Origin: Planctomycetota bacterium
Lineage (GTDB): Bacteria > Planctomycetota > SZUA-567 > H5-PLA8
Reading direction: 5' to 3'
Assembly: GCA_026184295.1 (NCBI GenBank)
Contig: JAHCJK010000037.1
Coordinates: forward strand, 1-38,048
DNA length: 38,048 nucleotides
How positions within the stretch are numbered: position 1 is the first letter of the stretch; each line of letters starts with the position of its first letter. The position numbers were made by a program, and so were the translations under genes. The notes under the pieces were generated by a model. That model was not told the DNA's origin, made no database searches, and saw only the letters and a list, made by a program, of their open reading frames with translations. Below, piece by piece: positions 28,147 through 37,374 of the stretch.

Positions 28147-28232
28147 GCGCATTTGAGCAGTCTGTTACCCCATTCACACGTGCAAAGTATTTAGAAACAA
28201 TGCTTTAAAAATTCTCATAAACATATATGTTT

Positions 28233-28256
28233 CCAGAGAACGACCCCGGTCTCTGG
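28233..28256. promoter_or_regulatory. Candidate operator or hairpin before the GntR-LacI regulator
   Basis: CCAGAGA (28233-28239) and TCTCTGG (28250-28256) are perfect inverted arms around 10 bp, 15 bp before the ATG at 28272. AT-rich sequence (28190-28228) precedes it, fitting a promoter. If the regulator started at ATG 28227 the repeat would be coding. An autoregulatory operator or an mRNA hairpin are both possible. Confidence 0.4.
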
Positions 28257-28271
28257 TGTATAGCTAGTATC

Positions 28272-29501
28272 ATGACGCCGCTGCCCTCCCAGCCAACATC
28301 CCCCCGCGCGCCCAAGCATCAGCGCGTGCGCGAGACGCTGCGCCGCCAGATCATGGAAGGGCTGTATCCCCCGGGTTCGGCGCTCCCGCCCGAGACCGAA
28401 CTCCCCAAGCGCCTGCGCGTCAGCAAGATCACGGTCGTGCGCGCGCTGAACGAGCTGGTGCGCGAAGGCCTGGTGGTGCGCCGCCGAGGGCGCGGCTCGT
28501 TCGTGGCCGATCCGGCGCAGCGCCCGCTGATCCCGGGGCGCTTCCTCAAGCTGGGCGTCCTGGTGCCGTTCTCGGTCTTTCCGGATTACCGGTACGGTTC
28601 GGCGCAGAACGAGATGCTGCGCGCGGCGCTGGCGACGTGGGGCATGGAACGGGCCGAGCCCGAGTTTCCCGGCGCGGCCGCCGACCAGGCCACGCAGGGG
28701 CGCTTCACCTGCGAGCCGCGGGGCTGCATGGTGAGCATGATGGGCGAAGAAGTGAGCGCGCACCCGATGCACCCGCCGCTCCAGGCGGTCAAGGCCGCGG
28801 GGTTGGACGGCATCCTGACGTGCAGCATCGTACAGGAAGCCTGGATGGCCGAACTGCTCGCGCTGGGCATCCCGACCGTGATCGTGGACTACCCGGCCGA
28901 ACGCTTCATCCTCCAGGCCGACCAGGTCTACTTCGATCCGCTGCCGGGCTACCGCGCGGCGGTGAACCACTTCGTCGCCGCGGGCCTGAAGCGCATCCAT
29001 TTCGTCGGCGGGCTGATCCACAAGCCGTTCGGGCGCTACGAAGACCGCCCCCGCGGCGACGCGTATTACACGCCGGAACACACGCAGCGCGACCCGGACA
29101 GTTTTCTGCGCCTGGCCGCGTGGCGCGAGACCATGACCCAGCACGGCCTGGACGCGCCCGAATCGAACGTGCACTACGCCTGGTCCGAAGGGAAGCACGC
29201 CGCCGAGACCGCGCTGCGCCTCGCGGACCTGCCCGCGGACCGGCGCCCGCAGGCGGTGGTCTGCCACGGCCTGGGGCAGGCGCAGGCGGTGCTCGAAGTG
29301 TTCGCCACGCGCGGGCTGCCGGTGATGACCGCCGGCGCGACCGATGCCGCGGGCCACGGCCCCGCGCTGCGCATCGTCGCGTCCAACGCGGACCTGGGAC
29401 GCACGGCGGCCTCGCTGTTGCTCTGGAAACTTCAACTTCCCTCGCGCCTGCCGCTGCGGGTGGGCGTGCCGATGGCACTTTCGAAGGAGAGCGTACGATG
29501 A
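28272..29501 (+). CDS. GntR-LacI hybrid transcriptional regulator (AraR-like architecture)
   Basis: The 409-residue protein has a GntR winged helix at about 15-79 (KHQRVRETLRRQIMEGLYPP; PPETELPKRLRVSKITVVRA; RRRGRGSFVADP). A periplasmic-binding-protein-like sensor domain of LacI type fills the rest (LKLGVLVPFSVFPDYR; LDGILTCSIVQEAW; IPTVIVDYPAERF; GLKRIHFVGGLIH; QAVVCHGLGQA). AraR of Bacillus has this layout and responds to a sugar. The ligand is unknown. Neither ATG 28272 nor ATG 28227 has a good ribosome site; 28272 is preferred because it starts close to the conserved domain and leaves the inverted repeat at 28233 non-coding. Its stop overlaps the start of the first propeller gene (ATGA), so regulator and propeller proteins are co-transcribed and translationally coupled. 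Confidence 0.88.
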   Translation: MTPLPSQPTSPRAPKHQRVRETLRRQIMEGLYPPGSALPPETELPKRLRVSKITVVRALNELVREGLVVRRRGRGSFVADPAQRPLIPGRFLKLGVLVPFSVFPDYRYGSAQNEMLRAALATWGMERAEPEFPGAAADQATQGRFTCEPRGCMVSMMGEEVSAHPMHPPLQAVKAAGLDGILTCSIVQEAWMAELLALGIPTVIVDYPAERFILQADQVYFDPLPGYRAAVNHFVAAGLKRIHFVGGLIHKPFGRYEDRPRGDAYYTPEHTQRDPDSFLRLAAWRETMTQHGLDAPESNVHYAWSEGKHAAETALRLADLPADRRPQAVVCHGLGQAQAVLEVFATRGLPVMTAGATDAAGHGPALRIVASNADLGRTAASLLLWKLQLPSRLPLRVGVPMALSKESVR

Positions 29502-32119
29502 TGGGAGTTCGAACGGTCCTGGCGTGCGCCGCGATGCTGCTGGCCGGAAGCCTGCTGGCGGGCGACGTCCGCTTTGCGACGCCGCCTTCGGCGAAGCAGA
29601 ACGGCGGACAGACGGAGATCGCCTTCGCGCTGGCCGCGGCCGGCGACGTGGAAGTGGCGGTGCTGAACGCCAAGGGGGACGTCGTGCGGCATCTGGCCGC
29701 GGGCGTGCTGGGCGGGGACAAGGCGCCGCCCGAGCCGCTCAAGGCGGGCCTGAGCCAGACGCTGGCGTGGGACGGCAAGGACGACTTCGGCAAGGCCGCG
29801 CAGGGCGGGCCGTTCAAAGTGCGGGTGCGCGCGGGCCTGGGCGTCAAGTTCGGGCGGCTGCTCGGCGCGGATCCCTACAACTTCGGCAGCATCGACAGCG
29901 TGGTCGGCGACGAGGACGGCAACGTCTACATCGCGGGTTCGCGCGGCGAATCGAACCAGATGGCGATGTGCGTGCGCGTCTTCGACGCCGAAGGGCGCTA
30001 CCTGCGCGAGATCGTGCCCTTTCCCGCCACGGCCGCGCCGGGCTCGATGAAGGACATCGCGCGCTGGGACGAGGAGGCCAAGACGTTCTACCCGCGCAAC
30101 CTGCGCAACCTCAACCCGGACTTTTACGGCCAGCCCGGCGGCACCTGGGGCAACGCCGCGCTCAAACTGCTCAGCGCGTCGAAGAAGAACGGCGTGATCC
30201 TGACCGACGGCGCGCGGCTCTTCGCGATCACCGCCGAAGGCCAGGTGCGCGACGATAAGTCCGTCATCCGCAACCTGGGCGGCGCGAAGAATTCCGGCGG
30301 CGGCCCGTCGCACGTGGCGATCTCGCCCGACGGCAAGTGGGTCTACCTCTCCGGGCCGTACAGCAACACCAACCGTTACGGCTATAAGTACGAACCCGCG
30401 TTTCCGCCCGGGCGCGTGTACCGCACGCCCCTGGCCGGCTCCGACAAGTTTTCCGAATTCGCCACCGTCGAGGTGGCCCACACGGAAGGCAACGGCGGCG
30501 CGTGGGAAAAGTCCGCCAAGGCGCTCCAGCATTTCACCGAGCCCAAGGGCCCGCTGATGGGCATGGCCGTGGACGCCAAGGGCCAGGTGTACGTCGCCGA
30601 CCGCGAACACGGCTGCGTGGCCGTCTTCGACGAGAACGCGAAGCGGATCGGCAAGATCGACGTCGTCAACCCGAACCTCGTCGCCATCCACCCCAAGTCC
30701 GGCGCGATCTACGTCACGCAGCTCGACTGCGTCGGCTACGGCGTCTTTCAGTGCACGCTGCTCAAGTTCGAGAACTTCCAGGACGGGGCGAAGCCGGTCG
30801 CGACGTACGATTTCCCGCAGGGGAACAACGCCAACCGCAACCAGAGCATGGCGCTGGCGGCGGGCAAGGACAAGACGGTGGTCTGGGTCGGCGGGGTGAA
30901 GGGCGGCCTGGCGCAGTTGGAGGACAAGGGGTCCTCGTTCGAACTCCTGCAGAACAAGTTCGTCCAGAAGGAGAGCATCCCGCGCGACTGGTACCGCCTG
31001 GCCGCCGACTACGACAAGGACACGATCTACCTCTCCAACGGCACCAACCGCATCTGGAAGTACGACGGGCTGAGCGGCGAGGGCGACCTGCTGAAGCAGG
31101 CCGACGGGAAGCCTTTCCACGGCACCGACCTGGCGGTGGGCTACGACGGCCTGCTGTACGTGCGCACGGGTTCCGGGTACTCCGGCCCGATGGAACGCTA
31201 CAACCGCGACCTGACGCCCGCGCCGTACGCGGCCACGGGCACCCACGTGCTGAGCGGCTACATTTACAGCCGCATGGGCTGCGGCTTCGCCGAACGCGGC
31301 CTGGGCGTGGGCCCGGACGGTTCGTGCTACATCACCTTCATGTACAAGTGGGTCGCGTACGCGGTGGGCGCCTTCGGGCCCGACGGCAAGCCGCGCAACG
31401 GCAAGTACCTGGCGGGCAAGTTTCCCACGCCGCCGCTCCCCGAAGGCAAGAAGCCGGAAAAGAGCCAAACGTATCCGGAGGACTGGAAGACCGCGATCAT
31501 CGGCCCGGTGCCGTCGATGTCGGCCAACCTGCGCGTGGACCTGAAGGGCAACATCTACCTCGGCATGATGTACCGGCCCAAGGATTTCACGCCGGCCAAG
31601 GGCTTCGAAAAGGACCAGGGCTACCGCGTCTCGGTCGGCAGCGTGGTCAAGTTCGGGCCCGAAGGCGGCGAGATGCCCGGCGACGAAGGCGCGCCCTCCG
31701 CGGCGAGCCTGAACGGCGTGCTGAACACCTACCCGGGCCTCGCCCCCTTCAGCAGCTCGGCCGAAGCCTTCGGCGGGAACACCTGCTGCGTCTGCCGCGT
31801 CCCGCGCTTCGACCTCGACCGCTACGGCCGCCTGGCGCTGCCCAACGCGATCACCAACTCGGTGCTGATCTACGACAACGCCGGCAACCTGATTCTGGAA
31901 TTCGGCAAGTACGGCAACTTCGATTCGCAGTACGTCAACCCGAACCTGGAAAGCGGCAAGCAGAACAAGCCCACCGCCGGGGTCCCCGAGATCCCGCTCG
32001 CCTGGCCCACCGGCGCGGGCTTTTCGGAAAAGCACATCTACGTCAACGACACCTACAACCGCCGCGCCGTGCGCGTGGACACGACCTACGCCGCCGAAGC
32101 CACCGCCGACGTGAAGTGA
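29498..32119 (+). CDS. Secreted FlgD-Ig / beta-propeller protein, paralogue 1
   Basis: The 873-residue protein has a signal peptide (about 1-21, ending LLA before GDVRF). A FlgD-type Ig-like domain follows at about 30-115 (VAVLNAKGDVVRHLAAGVLG; LAWDGKDDFGKAAQGGPFKV). Many propeller-like repeats come next, such as VVGDEDGNVYIAGSRG, MAVDAKGQVYVADREHG and RIWKYDGLSGEGDLL. Near the end is an invariant motif CCVCRVPRFDLDRYGRLALP (C763, C764, C766), then AWPTGAGFSEKHIYVNDTYN. NHL-type propellers bind proteins, glycans or RNA; no catalytic residue set is recognised. It is the first of three tandem paralogues. ATG 29498 overlaps the regulator's stop (ATGA), with AAGGAG 8 bases upstream. Function unknown; the GntR-LacI partner suggests a carbohydrate-related role. 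Confidence 0.82.
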   Translation: MMGVRTVLACAAMLLAGSLLAGDVRFATPPSAKQNGGQTEIAFALAAAGDVEVAVLNAKGDVVRHLAAGVLGGDKAPPEPLKAGLSQTLAWDGKDDFGKAAQGGPFKVRVRAGLGVKFGRLLGADPYNFGSIDSVVGDEDGNVYIAGSRGESNQMAMCVRVFDAEGRYLREIVPFPATAAPGSMKDIARWDEEAKTFYPRNLRNLNPDFYGQPGGTWGNAALKLLSASKKNGVILTDGARLFAITAEGQVRDDKSVIRNLGGAKNSGGGPSHVAISPDGKWVYLSGPYSNTNRYGYKYEPAFPPGRVYRTPLAGSDKFSEFATVEVAHTEGNGGAWEKSAKALQHFTEPKGPLMGMAVDAKGQVYVADREHGCVAVFDENAKRIGKIDVVNPNLVAIHPKSGAIYVTQLDCVGYGVFQCTLLKFENFQDGAKPVATYDFPQGNNANRNQSMALAAGKDKTVVWVGGVKGGLAQLEDKGSSFELLQNKFVQKESIPRDWYRLAADYDKDTIYLSNGTNRIWKYDGLSGEGDLLKQADGKPFHGTDLAVGYDGLLYVRTGSGYSGPMERYNRDLTPAPYAATGTHVLSGYIYSRMGCGFAERGLGVGPDGSCYITFMYKWVAYAVGAFGPDGKPRNGKYLAGKFPTPPLPEGKKPEKSQTYPEDWKTAIIGPVPSMSANLRVDLKGNIYLGMMYRPKDFTPAKGFEKDQGYRVSVGSVVKFGPEGGEMPGDEGAPSAASLNGVLNTYPGLAPFSSSAEAFGGNTCCVCRVPRFDLDRYGRLALPNAITNSVLIYDNAGNLILEFGKYGNFDSQYVNPNLESGKQNKPTAGVPEIPLAWPTGAGFSEKHIYVNDTYNRRAVRVDTTYAAEATADVK

Positions 32120-32144
32120 CGGCGCCGAACCTCAGGAGACGGCC

Positions 32145-34760
32145 ATGAAGATCGCGCTTCCTTTCTTGATGACGGCCCTGCTCGCCTCGGGCGCCCTCGC
32201 GGGCGAACCGTCGTTCTCCAACCCGCCCGCGGCCAAGAAGAACGGTTCGGAGGCCACGGTCGCGTTCGCGGTGAGCGCGAGCACCGACATCGAGGTCTCG
32301 GTGCTGAACGCCAAGGGCGACGTCGTGCGGCATCTCGCCGCGGGCGTGCTGGGCGGCGAAAAGCCCCCGCCCCCGCCGCTCAAGCCGGGCCTGAGCCAGA
32401 CGGTGGCGTGGGACGGGACGGACGATTTCGGCAAGCCGGCGCAGGGCGGGCCGTTCAAGTTCCGCGTGCGCGCGGGCTCGAAGTTCAAGTTCGGGCGCTT
32501 CATCGGCGAGGACCCGTACACGTTCGGCTCGGTGGACGGACTGGCCAGCGACGAGGAAGGCAACCTGTACATCAGTTCGTACGCGGGGACGCACAATCAG
32601 GGCGCGCGGACGGTGCGCGTCTACGACGGGCAGGGGCGCTACCTGCGCGAACTGGCGCCCTTTCCCGCCAGCGTGGACCCCGCGGGCATGAAGGACGTGG
32701 CGCGCTGGGACGCGCAGGCCAAGGTCTGGCGTCCGACCAACCGCTCGTGCCTGAACCCCGATTTCTACAACTGCCCCGGCGCGGCGCTCGTCTCGGCCTC
32801 GAAGTCCAACGGCGTCTTCCTCGCCGACCGCAACGACGTCTACGCGCTCAACGAGGACGGCAGCGTGAAGGGCGCGGCCGTGGGCACCAAGCAGAAGCCC
32901 TGGCCGACCTTCGACGCCAAAAACGGCGAAAACAACCACTACGGGCATCCCTGGCACTACCACGAAGGCGTCGAATGCTTCTCGGCCTCCCCCGACGGCA
33001 AGTGGCTGTACCTCGCCGGGCCCGTCCCGAACGCCGAGAAGCGCAAGAAGGAAGACCCGCGCTTCCCGCTCGGCGGCGTCTACCGCATGCGCCTGGACGG
33101 CAAGGACGAGATGAAGCTCTTCGTCTCGCTGCCGATCCCCTTCGACGGTGCCTGGGCCAAGGAAGGCGGGAAGATCTACGGGCGCACGGGCCCGATCCAC
33201 TTCGTCGGCGCCGACGCGAAGAACAACGTCTACGTCCCCGACCGCAACGGGAACCGCGTGGTGGTCTACTCCGAAGACGGCAAGCAGATCGGCGAAGTGA
33301 GCGTCAAGAATCCGCAGCAGATCGTCGCGCATCCGCGCACCGGCGCGTTTTACGTCCTGCGCATGGTCTGCAACGGCTGGTGCACGCACGCGATGGCCGT
33401 GGAGAAGTTCGACAGCTTCGCGCCGGGCAGCAAGCCCAGCGCCGTCTACGACAAGTTCCCGAACAAGGTCTCGCCGCGCATCACGGTGACGCAAAGCGGC
33501 ACGCGCACGCTGGTCTGGATCGCCGGCCTGCCGGAAGGGATGATCGCCCTGGAGGACAAGGGCAGCGCGCTGGCGCCCGTGGAGACCGGCTACAAGCGCA
33601 ATCCCGACGCCCAGATCGACTGGAACCGCCTGGCCGTGGACTACGGGCGCGACGAACTCTACGTCGCCGACGGCGGCAACCAGATCTGGCGCTACGACGG
33701 GAAGACCGGCGAAGGCGGGCTGTTGAAGCGCAAGAACGGCCAGAAGGTCGCGGCCGTGGACCTGGCCGTCGGCTACGACGAACTGCTCTACATCCGCACG
33801 GGCGAAGGCTTCACCGGGCCGCTGGAACGCTACACGCGCGACCTGGAACCCGCGCCGTATCCGGGCGGCACGCACGTGATCAGCCCCACGATCTACAGCC
33901 GCTTCGGCGTCGGCAACTGCGAGAAGGGCGTCGGCGTCGGGCCCAAGGGCGAAGTGTACATCTCCTTCATGTACGACTGGACCCTGTACGCGGTCGGCGG
34001 CTTCGGCGGCGACGGCAAGGCGCTGAAGGGCCTGTACCTGGATGGTAAGTTCCCCGCGAAGGGCGACGGCCTGAAGGGCTACCCGCCCGAACTGCGGACC
34101 TCCATGATCGGCCCGATCACGGCCGCTGGCGGCGGGGTGCGCGTGGACCTGCAGGGCAACATCTACCTGGGGCTGGACGTGAAGCCCGCCGGCTACGCGA
34201 TGCCCGGCTTCCTGAAGGGCGACGCGGTCGGCGAACGCTGGTACACGAGCATCGTCAAGTTCGGGCCCAAGGGCGGCGCGATCCTGGGTATCAAGGACAG
34301 CGAGAGCAAGCAGCCCGAGGCGCCCAAGATCGAGCTCGAGAACAAGCTGACGGCGGAGAACGCGCTGAACATCTACCCGGGCCTCGGCCCGGTCAGCGGC
34401 CCGGGGCCGGGCGGGAACAGTTCGTGCTGCGTCTGCCGCGTCCCGCGCTTCGACGTCGATCGCTTCGGGCGGCTGGTCATGCCCAGCGCGTTCGCGGCCA
34501 ACGTGCTCATGTACGACAATGCGGGCAACAAGATCGCCGAACTGGGCGCCTACGGCAACTTCGACTCGCAGTACGTGAACCCGAACACCGAGGCCGGCAA
34601 GCAGAAGAAGCCGACCATCGCCTCGCCCGAAATCCCGCTCGCCTGGCCCACGGGCGCGGGCGTCAGCGAGAACCACATTTACATCAACGACACCTACAAC
34701 CGCCGCATCGTGCGCGTGGACAAGGCGTTCTCCGCCGAGGCACTGGCCGACGTGAAGTAA
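32145..34760 (+). CDS. Secreted FlgD-Ig / beta-propeller protein, paralogue 2
   Basis: The 871-residue protein repeats the layout of its neighbour: signal peptide (MKIALPFLMTALLASGALA), FlgD-type Ig domain (VSVLNAKGDVVRHLAAGVLG; VAWDGTDDFGKPAQGGPFKF), propeller repeats (LASDEEGNLYISSYAGTHNQ; QIWRYDGKTGEGGLL) and the C-terminal CCVCRVPRFDVDRFGRLVMP motif (C761, C762, C764). Compared with paralogue 1 it has a distinct central insert around KQKPWPTFDAKNGENNHYGH and extra Cys in MVCNGWCTH. The Ig domain and the last 100 residues are the best conserved parts, and the propeller loops diverge most, as expected if the loops bind different ligands. AGGAG lies 6 bases before the ATG. It follows paralogue 1 by 25 bp and precedes paralogue 3 by 13 bp. 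Confidence 0.82.
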   Translation: MKIALPFLMTALLASGALAGEPSFSNPPAAKKNGSEATVAFAVSASTDIEVSVLNAKGDVVRHLAAGVLGGEKPPPPPLKPGLSQTVAWDGTDDFGKPAQGGPFKFRVRAGSKFKFGRFIGEDPYTFGSVDGLASDEEGNLYISSYAGTHNQGARTVRVYDGQGRYLRELAPFPASVDPAGMKDVARWDAQAKVWRPTNRSCLNPDFYNCPGAALVSASKSNGVFLADRNDVYALNEDGSVKGAAVGTKQKPWPTFDAKNGENNHYGHPWHYHEGVECFSASPDGKWLYLAGPVPNAEKRKKEDPRFPLGGVYRMRLDGKDEMKLFVSLPIPFDGAWAKEGGKIYGRTGPIHFVGADAKNNVYVPDRNGNRVVVYSEDGKQIGEVSVKNPQQIVAHPRTGAFYVLRMVCNGWCTHAMAVEKFDSFAPGSKPSAVYDKFPNKVSPRITVTQSGTRTLVWIAGLPEGMIALEDKGSALAPVETGYKRNPDAQIDWNRLAVDYGRDELYVADGGNQIWRYDGKTGEGGLLKRKNGQKVAAVDLAVGYDELLYIRTGEGFTGPLERYTRDLEPAPYPGGTHVISPTIYSRFGVGNCEKGVGVGPKGEVYISFMYDWTLYAVGGFGGDGKALKGLYLDGKFPAKGDGLKGYPPELRTSMIGPITAAGGGVRVDLQGNIYLGLDVKPAGYAMPGFLKGDAVGERWYTSIVKFGPKGGAILGIKDSESKQPEAPKIELENKLTAENALNIYPGLGPVSGPGPGGNSSCCVCRVPRFDVDRFGRLVMPSAFAANVLMYDNAGNKIAELGAYGNFDSQYVNPNTEAGKQKKPTIASPEIPLAWPTGAGVSENHIYINDTYNRRIVRVDKAFSAEALADVK

Positions 34761-34773
34761 AAGGAGGAACTCG

Positions 34774-37374
34774 ATGCTGCGCGCATTCTCGATCCTGATC
34801 CTGTTCGCCGGTTCGCTGGGCTGGGCCGCGGACGTGTCCTTTGCCACGCCGCCAAGCGCCCGGAAGGACGGCGACAAGACCACGATCGCCTTCGCGGTCT
34901 CCGCCCGCACCGACGTCGAAGTCGCGGTGCTCGACGCCAAAGGCGGGATCGTGCGGCACCTCGCCGCGGGCGTGCTGGGCGGGGAACAGGCGCCGCCGCC
35001 GCCGCTGAAGGCGGGCTTGAGCCAGTCGCTGGCGTGGGACGGCAAGGACGACTTCGGCAAGCCGGCGCAGGGCGGGCCGTTCAAAGTGCGGGTGCGCGCG
35101 GGGATGCGCGTGGCCTTCGGGCGCTTTCTCGGCGGGGACACCTGCCGCTTCGGGACCGTCAACGGCATGGCCACCGACGCCGACGGCACGCTGTACGTCT
35201 CCGGGTTCATCGGCGAGACCAACCAGAACATGATCACCGTGCGGGCCTTCGCGCCCGACGGCGGGTACCGGCGCACGCTGCTGCCGTTCCCGGCCGACCT
35301 GAAGCCCGAACAGTTGAAGGGCATCGCCGAATTCGACGCGTCGAAGAAGGGCTGGATTCCCAACAACCAGAACAGCCTGAACCCGACCTTTTATCCCTGG
35401 GGCACGGCCGACGCGAACGTGATCGCGGCGACGCGTTCGGCGGTGACGCTGGCCAGCGGCATGACGGTCTTCCGCTTCGACCCGCGCGGCGGGCTGATCG
35501 ACGGGCCCTCGCCCATGTGGTCGCCGGCCGCGAAACTGAAGTGCCCCACGTGGCTGCGCATCCAGGTGGCGGCCTCGCCCGACGGCAAGTACCTGTACTA
35601 TTCGAACGTCGCGGGCACCGTCTACCAGCCGAAGAGCTTCAAGGACACCGATCCCAACTGGCCGCAGGGGCGCGTCTACCGCCAGGAGGTCGGTTCGGGC
35701 AAGGACCCGCAGCCGTTCTACGACCTGGAACTGCCCGACTGGGAGAAGCAGAAATACTGGCTGCCCGACGCGTGGAATAAGCGCACCGCCGCCTACGGCC
35801 TGTGCGTGGACGCCAAGGGACACGTGTACGTCTGCGACCTGGTCAACCAGGGCATCGTGGAAGTGGGCCCCGACGGCAAGAAGATCGGCTTTACCAAAGC
35901 GCCCTGGCCCGAACGCGTGCACGTGGACGAAGCCAGCGGCGCGTACTACGTCGTCAGCCGCCTGGAGCAGCCCAAGGACGGCCAGGTGCTGAAGAAGCTG
36001 GTCAAGATCGCCGGGCGCGGCGACGCGGGCAGGATCGCCGCGGAATTCCCCTTCACGCAGCACGGCGTGGGCGAAGCCACCGCGCTGGGGACCATGGACG
36101 GCAAGCCGGTGCTCTGGGCCGGCGGCGGCGGCGAACTGCTCTGCATCCGCGACGCCGGCGCGAAGCTGGAACTCGTCGCGACCAAGTTCAAGCCCGACCC
36201 CGAATCGCAGCCCGATTACAACCGCCTCTGCGCCGATCCCGTGCGCGACCAGGTCTACGTCAACACCGGCACCAACCGCATCTGGCGCTACGACGGCAAG
36301 ACCGGGCAGGGCGAACTCCTGAAGGACAAGGGCAAGGTCTTTTACGCGACCGACCTGTCCGTGGGGTACGACGGGAACCTGTACATCCGTTCGGGCGAAG
36401 GCTACAGCGGCCCGCTGGAACGCCGCGACACGGAACTCAAGCCCGTCCCCTACGCCGCCACGGGCTCGCACGTGCTCACGCCGTACGTCTACAGCCGCAT
36501 GGGCGTGGGCTTCAGCGAACACGGCATCGGCGTCGGGCCGGACGACCGCTGCCTCTTCATCTTCATGTACGGCTGGAACAAGTACTGCATCTCGGCCTTC
36601 GGCGGCAACGGCAAGGCGCAGCCGGGGAACTACCTGAAAGGCAAGGTGAACGAGCCCGACCCCAAGACGGGCAAGCGCCCGATGCCGGAAGAGATCAACT
36701 CCGCGGTGATCGGCCCGCTGCCGATGTCCAACGGAGGCCTGCGCATCGATCCGCAGGGGAACATCTACGTCGGCATGCGCCTTTCGCCCGAGGCCGCCGG
36801 CGCGCCGCCGGGCTTCGAAAAGAACAACGCGTACAAGAGCTGGATCGGGTGCGTGGTGAAGTTCCCGCCCGAAGGCGGCACGGTGCTGAACACCGAGGCC
36901 AAGGAAGACCAGGGCGCGGCGGAAGGGACGCGCGTGCCGGTCGTTCACGCCGGGATGAAGATGGAACTCGTCAACGCGCTGAAGATCTACCCGGGGGTCG
37001 GATCGTTCAGCGGGGGCGGCTGGGGCGGGAACAGTTCGTGCTGCGTCTGCCGCGTGCCGCGCTTCGACGTGGACCGCTTCGGGCGGCTGGCGCTGCCCAA
37101 CGTGGTCACCAACAGCGTCACGATTCTCGACAACGCCGGCAACGAGATCCTCACTTTCGGCAAGTACGGGAACTTCGACTCGCAGTTCCGGAACCCCTAC
37201 GCGGAAGGCAGCGCCAAGGACCAGCCCGCGATCGCGGAGCCCGAAATCCCGCTCGCCTGGCCCACGGGCACCGGCTTCAGCGAGAAGCACGTCTACGTCA
37301 ACGACACCTACAACCGCCGCGTCGTCCGCGTGGACAAGGCCTACGGCGCCGAAGCGCTCGCCGACGTGAAGTAG
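34774..37374 (+). CDS. Secreted FlgD-Ig / beta-propeller protein, paralogue 3
   Basis: The 866-residue protein has a signal peptide (MLRAFSILILFAGSLGWA), a FlgD-type Ig domain (VAVLDAKGGIVRHLAAGVLG; LAWDGKDDFGKPAQGGPFKV) and propeller repeats (MATDADGTLYVSGFIGETNQ; LCVDAKGHVYVCDLVNQG; RIWRYDGKTGQGELL). The shared CCVCRVPRFDVDRFGRLALP motif (C756, C757, C759) and the same AWPTGTGFSEKHVYVNDTYN ending follow. Its ribosome site, AAAGGAGG 6 bases before the ATG, is the strongest of the three genes. Stretches of high DNA identity with paralogues 1 and 2 cover the Ig domain and the C-terminus, pointing to duplication followed by divergence of the middle. It ends 22 bp from a convergent LacI-type regulator. 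Function unknown; a secreted or surface role is inferred from the signal peptide. Confidence 0.82.
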   Translation: MLRAFSILILFAGSLGWAADVSFATPPSARKDGDKTTIAFAVSARTDVEVAVLDAKGGIVRHLAAGVLGGEQAPPPPLKAGLSQSLAWDGKDDFGKPAQGGPFKVRVRAGMRVAFGRFLGGDTCRFGTVNGMATDADGTLYVSGFIGETNQNMITVRAFAPDGGYRRTLLPFPADLKPEQLKGIAEFDASKKGWIPNNQNSLNPTFYPWGTADANVIAATRSAVTLASGMTVFRFDPRGGLIDGPSPMWSPAAKLKCPTWLRIQVAASPDGKYLYYSNVAGTVYQPKSFKDTDPNWPQGRVYRQEVGSGKDPQPFYDLELPDWEKQKYWLPDAWNKRTAAYGLCVDAKGHVYVCDLVNQGIVEVGPDGKKIGFTKAPWPERVHVDEASGAYYVVSRLEQPKDGQVLKKLVKIAGRGDAGRIAAEFPFTQHGVGEATALGTMDGKPVLWAGGGGELLCIRDAGAKLELVATKFKPDPESQPDYNRLCADPVRDQVYVNTGTNRIWRYDGKTGQGELLKDKGKVFYATDLSVGYDGNLYIRSGEGYSGPLERRDTELKPVPYAATGSHVLTPYVYSRMGVGFSEHGIGVGPDDRCLFIFMYGWNKYCISAFGGNGKAQPGNYLKGKVNEPDPKTGKRPMPEEINSAVIGPLPMSNGGLRIDPQGNIYVGMRLSPEAAGAPPGFEKNNAYKSWIGCVVKFPPEGGTVLNTEAKEDQGAAEGTRVPVVHAGMKMELVNALKIYPGVGSFSGGGWGGNSSCCVCRVPRFDVDRFGRLALPNVVTNSVTILDNAGNEILTFGKYGNFDSQFRNPYAEGSAKDQPAIAEPEIPLAWPTGTGFSEKHVYVNDTYNRRVVRVDKAYGAEALADVK

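Follow-up and report, generated by a model that had tools for sequence, protein, structure and literature searches.

The window analysed here, a stretch of 38,048 nucleotides from a member of the Planctomycetota, carries three tandem genes whose products share a cluster of cysteines near the C-terminus, and it raises the question of which of these cysteines matter and what they do in an exported protein. The first gene, P0001 (29501..32119, + strand), encodes 872 amino acids with a predicted signal peptide, a putative FlgD-type Ig domain and two beta-propellers, and is member 1 of what is called here the CxC family. It is followed by its paralogues P0002 (32145..34760, +; 871 aa, 51% identity to P0001) and P0003 (34774..37374, +; 866 aa, 48% identity to P0001). 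The CCVC codons were located at 31784..31795 (+) in P0001 (C762-C763-V764-C765), at 34425..34436 (+) in P0002 (C761-C762-V763-C764) and at 37039..37050 (+) in P0003 (C756-C757-V758-C759); the family-wide pair corresponds to C763 and C765 of P0001. In the ORF translations, CCVCRVPRFD-x-DR-[FY]-GRL was matched exactly and in the same frame in all three proteins. This reading, together with the nucleotide positions, confirmed the claim of an earlier note on this DNA that CCVC occurs in the same context in all three propeller proteins. The sites it gave were right, apart from an end at 37047 that falls three bases before the end of the last cysteine codon, while its cysteine numbers for the first protein (C763-C764-V765-C766) are one too high, a difference that a start one codon earlier (ATG ATG) would explain. 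It had also stated that the motif is not a CxxCH haem site, and this holds, as the motif reads CCVCR in every case; a c-type haem protein was ruled out by the sequence of all three proteins. Gene conversion was considered as the source of the identity among the three copies. Because a genome of the same genus (G001) possesses three copies of its own, whose neighbouring letters are different, selection would be the preferred explanation.

The signal peptides were called by eye from the N-termini. A candidate for the Ig-like domain of FlgD (PF13860) lies between residues 33 and 111 in the three proteins (E 5e-06 to 9e-05), with scores of 26.8, 23.7 and 22.9 bits, all below the curated cut-off of 27. 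The NHL repeat scored above its Pfam cut-off (20 bits) in P0001, P0002 and P0003 (25.7, 21.8 and 25.5 bits), the best stretch lying within the C-terminal half only for P0002 (832-856). P0001 and P0003 also exceeded the cut-off of Pfam SGL (34 and 29.4 bits), a likeness to the SMP-30/gluconolactonase-like region; the match is short and is best in the first half of each protein, at a distance from the motif. AlphaFold2 modelling of P0001 with 102 relatives resulted in a double propeller (pLDDT 92.9, pTM 0.93), with six blades per half as counted from the predicted strand list. The C-terminal six-bladed NHL-type propeller, which bears the motif (residues 486-872; 30956..32116, +), was modelled equally well alone (pLDDT 93.3, pTM 0.93). 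When the C-terminal half was compared with the PDB, 6xg7 (Z 22.0, rmsd 3.0, 242 aligned) and Pizza6 3ww9 (Z 19.9) were retrieved, so that model and fold search both describe a six-bladed propeller; the searches, run with two models, are evidence on fold and not on function. Based on the Pfam matches, the AlphaFold2 models and the matches to NHL propellers, P0001, P0002 and P0003 are predicted to be exported proteins with a putative Ig domain and two propellers, and are members of one large family.

The fold of the C-terminal half is that of the NHL six-bladed propellers (Thin, TRIM71, TRIM2/3, Brat and the PknD sensor domain). Unlike those, it is here the second of two propellers and is exported behind an Ig domain. 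No NHL family was seen described with a CxC pair in the loop that holds it in the present family. Pfam and NCBIfam gave the family no name beyond general repeats, and the sequence search found no solved structure recognisable as a close motif-bearing relative. In the accessible parts of the literature on the family, its organisms, this type of propeller, and CXC or vicinal disulfides, no description of the family was recognised.

Conservation was evaluated in an alignment of 180 distinct motif regions, taken from named relatives and from 294 genomes of the phylum (family in 14 of 294 at E 1e-20). The named relatives, 80 of 139, are mostly Planctomycetota MAGs and include Gemmataceae, Pirellulaceae, Phycisphaerae and one Fibrobacteres MAG; they were retrieved with patterns that held no Cys and included PRFD[VL]Dx[YF]GR, which lies beside the motif. 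C-x-C was present in 169 of the 180 regions, whereas 10 lacked both cysteines and 1 had a single one. Rows gapped at both Cys columns were dropped, and if L159_7578, which is clearly without the pair, is counted, the figure becomes 169/181. A protein-level retrieval that used no DNA pattern (60 relatives searched, 10 of them with the family) gave CxC in 92 of 97 sequences covering the region, those of the own genome among them. The median pairwise identity of the family is about 29% and the background frequency of Cys is 1.3%. Only two Cys columns of the family alignment are more than 50% occupied, C763 (95.7%) and C765 (93.3%), the next being at 47% and 40%. The spacing C-x-C-x7-D-x3-R is kept in 167 of the 169 CxC members, and the middle residue of the pair is of 16 kinds (V in 53 and A in 33 of 169). 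Judged from these alignments, the conservation of CxC is not due to chance. The own genome has nine family genes, one of which is cut by a contig end before the motif region; seven of the other eight contain CxC (three CCVC; CHC, CIC, CAC and CNC), the exception being P0005. Some members depart from the common architecture. In L010 391-2946 (own genome, contig C79) most of the first propeller is missing and a different N-terminal domain precedes the Ig domain (by eye), and L083 279-4001 is a 1241-aa family frame with about 390 extra residues beyond the second propeller. A further member was seen in L141, a locus titled Propionibacteriaceae that is probably a binning error.

The first cysteine, C762, behaved differently from the pair, being present in 29 and absent in 140 of the 169 CxC members. 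On the tree, built with FastTree only from 165 of the 180 regions with the motif columns masked, its state changed about 10 times when scored within all CxC rows. An alternative count that ignores rows outside both groups gave one change for CCxC; the first count was relied on because it uses all CxC rows. The 11 rows without CxC lie on one side of a single branch with support 100, which corresponds to one change. On this unrooted tree the change may be a gain or a loss of the pair. This clade, well supported and mostly reading RFGVD-x-YGR, includes P0005 (L005 1432-4023) and members from L037, L054, L055, L060, L150, L155, L156, L164 and L167, and is a natural control for the Cys site. The earlier note had taken all three cysteines as invariant and the vicinal pair as the point, and neither is borne out, the rarity of C762 and its repeated changes leaving only C-x-C as a family feature. 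What stands from it is that a secreted propeller carries several cysteines in a conserved motif: the check on a wider family that it had proposed was passed by the C-x-C pair and failed by the first Cys. By this reading of the alignment, C-x-C rather than CCVC is the true family signature, and the motif is to be restated so.

In the full model of P0001 a strand ends at 747 and a loop runs up to 768, followed by a short innermost strand (769-772) and then by strands 778-782, 787-791 and 797-801. From these boundaries, C763 and C765 are predicted to lie in the second propeller, within the loop that precedes the innermost strand of blade 5. Propeller loops of this kind are found on the face that binds ligands, close to the central channel. 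Given this usual geometry, the motif loop would be placed on that face, at the mouth of the channel. Apart from the C-terminal tail, it is the least confident part of the domain: residues 756-765 have a pLDDT of 65 in the domain model, where most values elsewhere are 93 to 98; in the full model the values were 63 (751-760) and 81 (761-770). A weakly predicted loop in an otherwise confident model is consistent with a site that may be shaped by something outside the model.

Possible partners of the pair were searched for by comparing columns at least 85% conserved in 154 CxC rows with the 11 CxC-less rows. No column of H, D, E, N, Q, K, R, S, T, Y or W was lost with the pair, and besides both cysteines only four glycines (G401, G526, G629 and G723) change with CxC. 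A co-lost metal ligand was rejected, as no further column with C, H, D or E among these was co-lost, and a disulfide to a third conserved cysteine was likewise rejected, with the next Cys columns at 47% and 40%. Taken together, the pair appears to have no conserved partner within the chain. The remaining cysteines were counted in 162 full-length rows from an approximate start of the mature protein. Among the 125 full-length CxC members that lack the first Cys, their number ranged from 1 to 21 and was odd in 58 and even in 67; in 27 CCxC members, 14 were odd and 13 even. They thus seem unconserved and of random parity, with no sign of disulfide pairing seen. In the host genome (G000, 93.9% complete) no model match to DsbA, DsbB or VKOR was obtained. 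Among 16 family-bearing genomes DsbA was found in 4 and VKOR in 1, and in the phylum at large DsbA was matched in 21 of 79 genomes, so that its rarity characterises the phylum as a whole rather than the family. The absent Dsb system and the cysteine parity lower the case for a structural disulfide. The lack of a co-lost ligand, of a partner Cys and of a detected Dsb system would narrow the options without deciding among them.

Modestly favoured is a two-thiol site, located where the channel of the second propeller opens and used for a soft metal or for thiol chemistry, at a likelihood that we would place a little short of even. The two thiols would work jointly as one site and would most likely stay reduced, either binding a soft metal such as Cu(I), Zn or a similar ion or reacting, as thiols, with a ligand seated at the mouth of the channel. 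In some subfamilies CCVC would contribute its first Cys as an optional third thiol. This reading is favoured by the retention of CxC in 169/180 regions at 29% median identity and in 92/97 of the pattern-free set, by the fixed spacing to the blade, and by the pair behaving as a single unit, both cysteines being absent in 10 of the 11 exceptions after one change on the tree. The loop pLDDT of 65 would fit a site formed with a factor that was not modelled. Against a routine disulfide speak the unconserved other cysteines (58:67 odd to even), the failure to find DsbA, DsbB and VKOR in the host and the strain of a CXC disulfide, described in the available text of PMC2672033 as an 11-membered ring with a PDI-like potential. 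On the other hand, the gain or loss of the pair is not accompanied by that of any third conserved Cys, His, Asp or Glu, so that there is no sign of a classical protein metal site with three or four ligands; export may expose the thiols to oxidation; and the absence of DsbA, common in the phylum (no match in 58 of 79 genomes), is compatible with another oxidant.

Ranked second is a structural disulfide between C763 and C765, stapling the long loop at the channel mouth, which we consider possible, at roughly one chance in three. Export of the protein, the keeping and losing of the pair as a unit with no third ligand co-varying, and the shorter loop before the blade in the pair-less clade (by eye) would all suit such a staple. 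It has against it the ring strain and PDI-like potential just cited, the missing DsbA, DsbB and VKOR of the host, and other cysteines that are unpaired by number or position.

In tuned redox motifs the middle residue is constrained, unlike in the CxC found here, where it is free to be any of the 16 kinds observed. This speaks against a redox-active dithiol that would cycle between dithiol and disulfide on a partner protein or substrate, as does the absence of thioredoxin-like families from the 25 commonest listed per batch for 108 neighbours. The idea draws on CXC disulfide/dithiol peptides (Woycechowsky and Raines 2003, as cited in PMC2672033), which, in the part of that source available, have the same two-Cys spacing and a PDI-like potential; these are peptides and not propellers, and the explanation is considered improbable.

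In PQQ alcohol dehydrogenases the Cys pair is placed on the active-site side of the propeller. The propellers of these enzymes have vicinal disulfides, as far as the accessible text of PMC13384848 goes, and both adjacent cysteines are present in P0001, P0002 and P0003, which could suggest C762-C763 as a functional bond of the same kind. The likeness extends to a propeller with a Cys pair; the differences are a CxC instead of CC, a six-bladed NHL fold and no PQQ family match above cut-off. The only PQQ propeller family hit was PF13360 in P0002 (E 0.08, 13 bits against 27.6), and a PQQ dehydrogenase was rejected. With the first Cys missing in 140 of 169 members, a vicinal Cys-Cys was rejected as a family feature, and a functional bond of this type is very unlikely; the strained vicinal bond would not be a general function, but at most an extra of some subfamilies. 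Equally remote are intermolecular disulfides to other envelope proteins, which would suit an exported protein of Planctomycetota, whose wall is described as protein-layer stabilised in the consulted part of PMC3035269, but for which two cysteines at fixed spacing within a propeller loop exceed the need, and for which DsbA, DsbB and VKOR were not found.

The surroundings of the genes bear on the wider role. Just upstream of P0001 lies a GntR-type regulator with a LacI-like ligand-binding domain (28227..29501, +; Pfam GntR 7.5e-18, Peripla_BP_3 4.8e-09), and a Gfo/Idh/MocA oxidoreductase is also found upstream. Convergent to P0003 is a frame open at the contig end (37397-38047, -) that, by eye, resembles the ligand-binding half of a LacI-type regulator, and because of it the three genes seem to be flanked by two sugar-type regulators. 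In relatives, 108 direct neighbours, picked by codon score from 70 named loci in which one organism's loci can repeat, comprised 12 Kelch-repeat proteins, 7 GH123, 6 sulfatases and at least 5 GntR among the families listed, namely the 25 commonest of each of two batches. The neighbouring Kelch propellers often carry a C-G-x2-3-H patch (L110, L009, L142, L172, L137 and others; for example YCGQDHN, YCGANHG and FCGTGVHG), perhaps a second Cys/His site. Por_Secre_tail (Pfam) was matched in 5 of the 56 neighbours of the second batch, and the C-terminal tails of some Fibrobacteres members resemble type IX sorting domains (by eye). Tails and neighbours would together support export and a link to glycans. 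Since sugar-type regulators adjoin the genes, and Kelch propellers, GH123 glycosidases and sulfatases occur beside those of relatives, the wider role would probably be in the uptake or breakdown of particular glycans.

The fullest statement of this view, which as a whole we regard as rather unlikely, is that of a large class of exported planctomycetal double propellers with a C-x-C two-thiol centre where the channel of the second propeller opens, which would bind a soft metal or react with a substrate in hosts mostly lacking the usual disulfide machinery. If true, this would amount to a propeller active site of a new kind, whose duplication and diversification went along with loci for glycan use. 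A dithiol that stays fixed amid a drift to 23-50% identity points strongly to a working site. Family matches number about 20 or more in each of several related genomes (19 to 38 in G003, G004, G007, G008, G011, G038 and G045, pieces counted apart), which is a strong expansion of the family in these uncultured Planctomycetota, and with such numbers the family may be a large share of their exported proteins. Solving the site would test whether exported CxC pairs in Dsb-less bacteria are metal sites or disulfides, and would assign a function to many hypothetical proteins at once.
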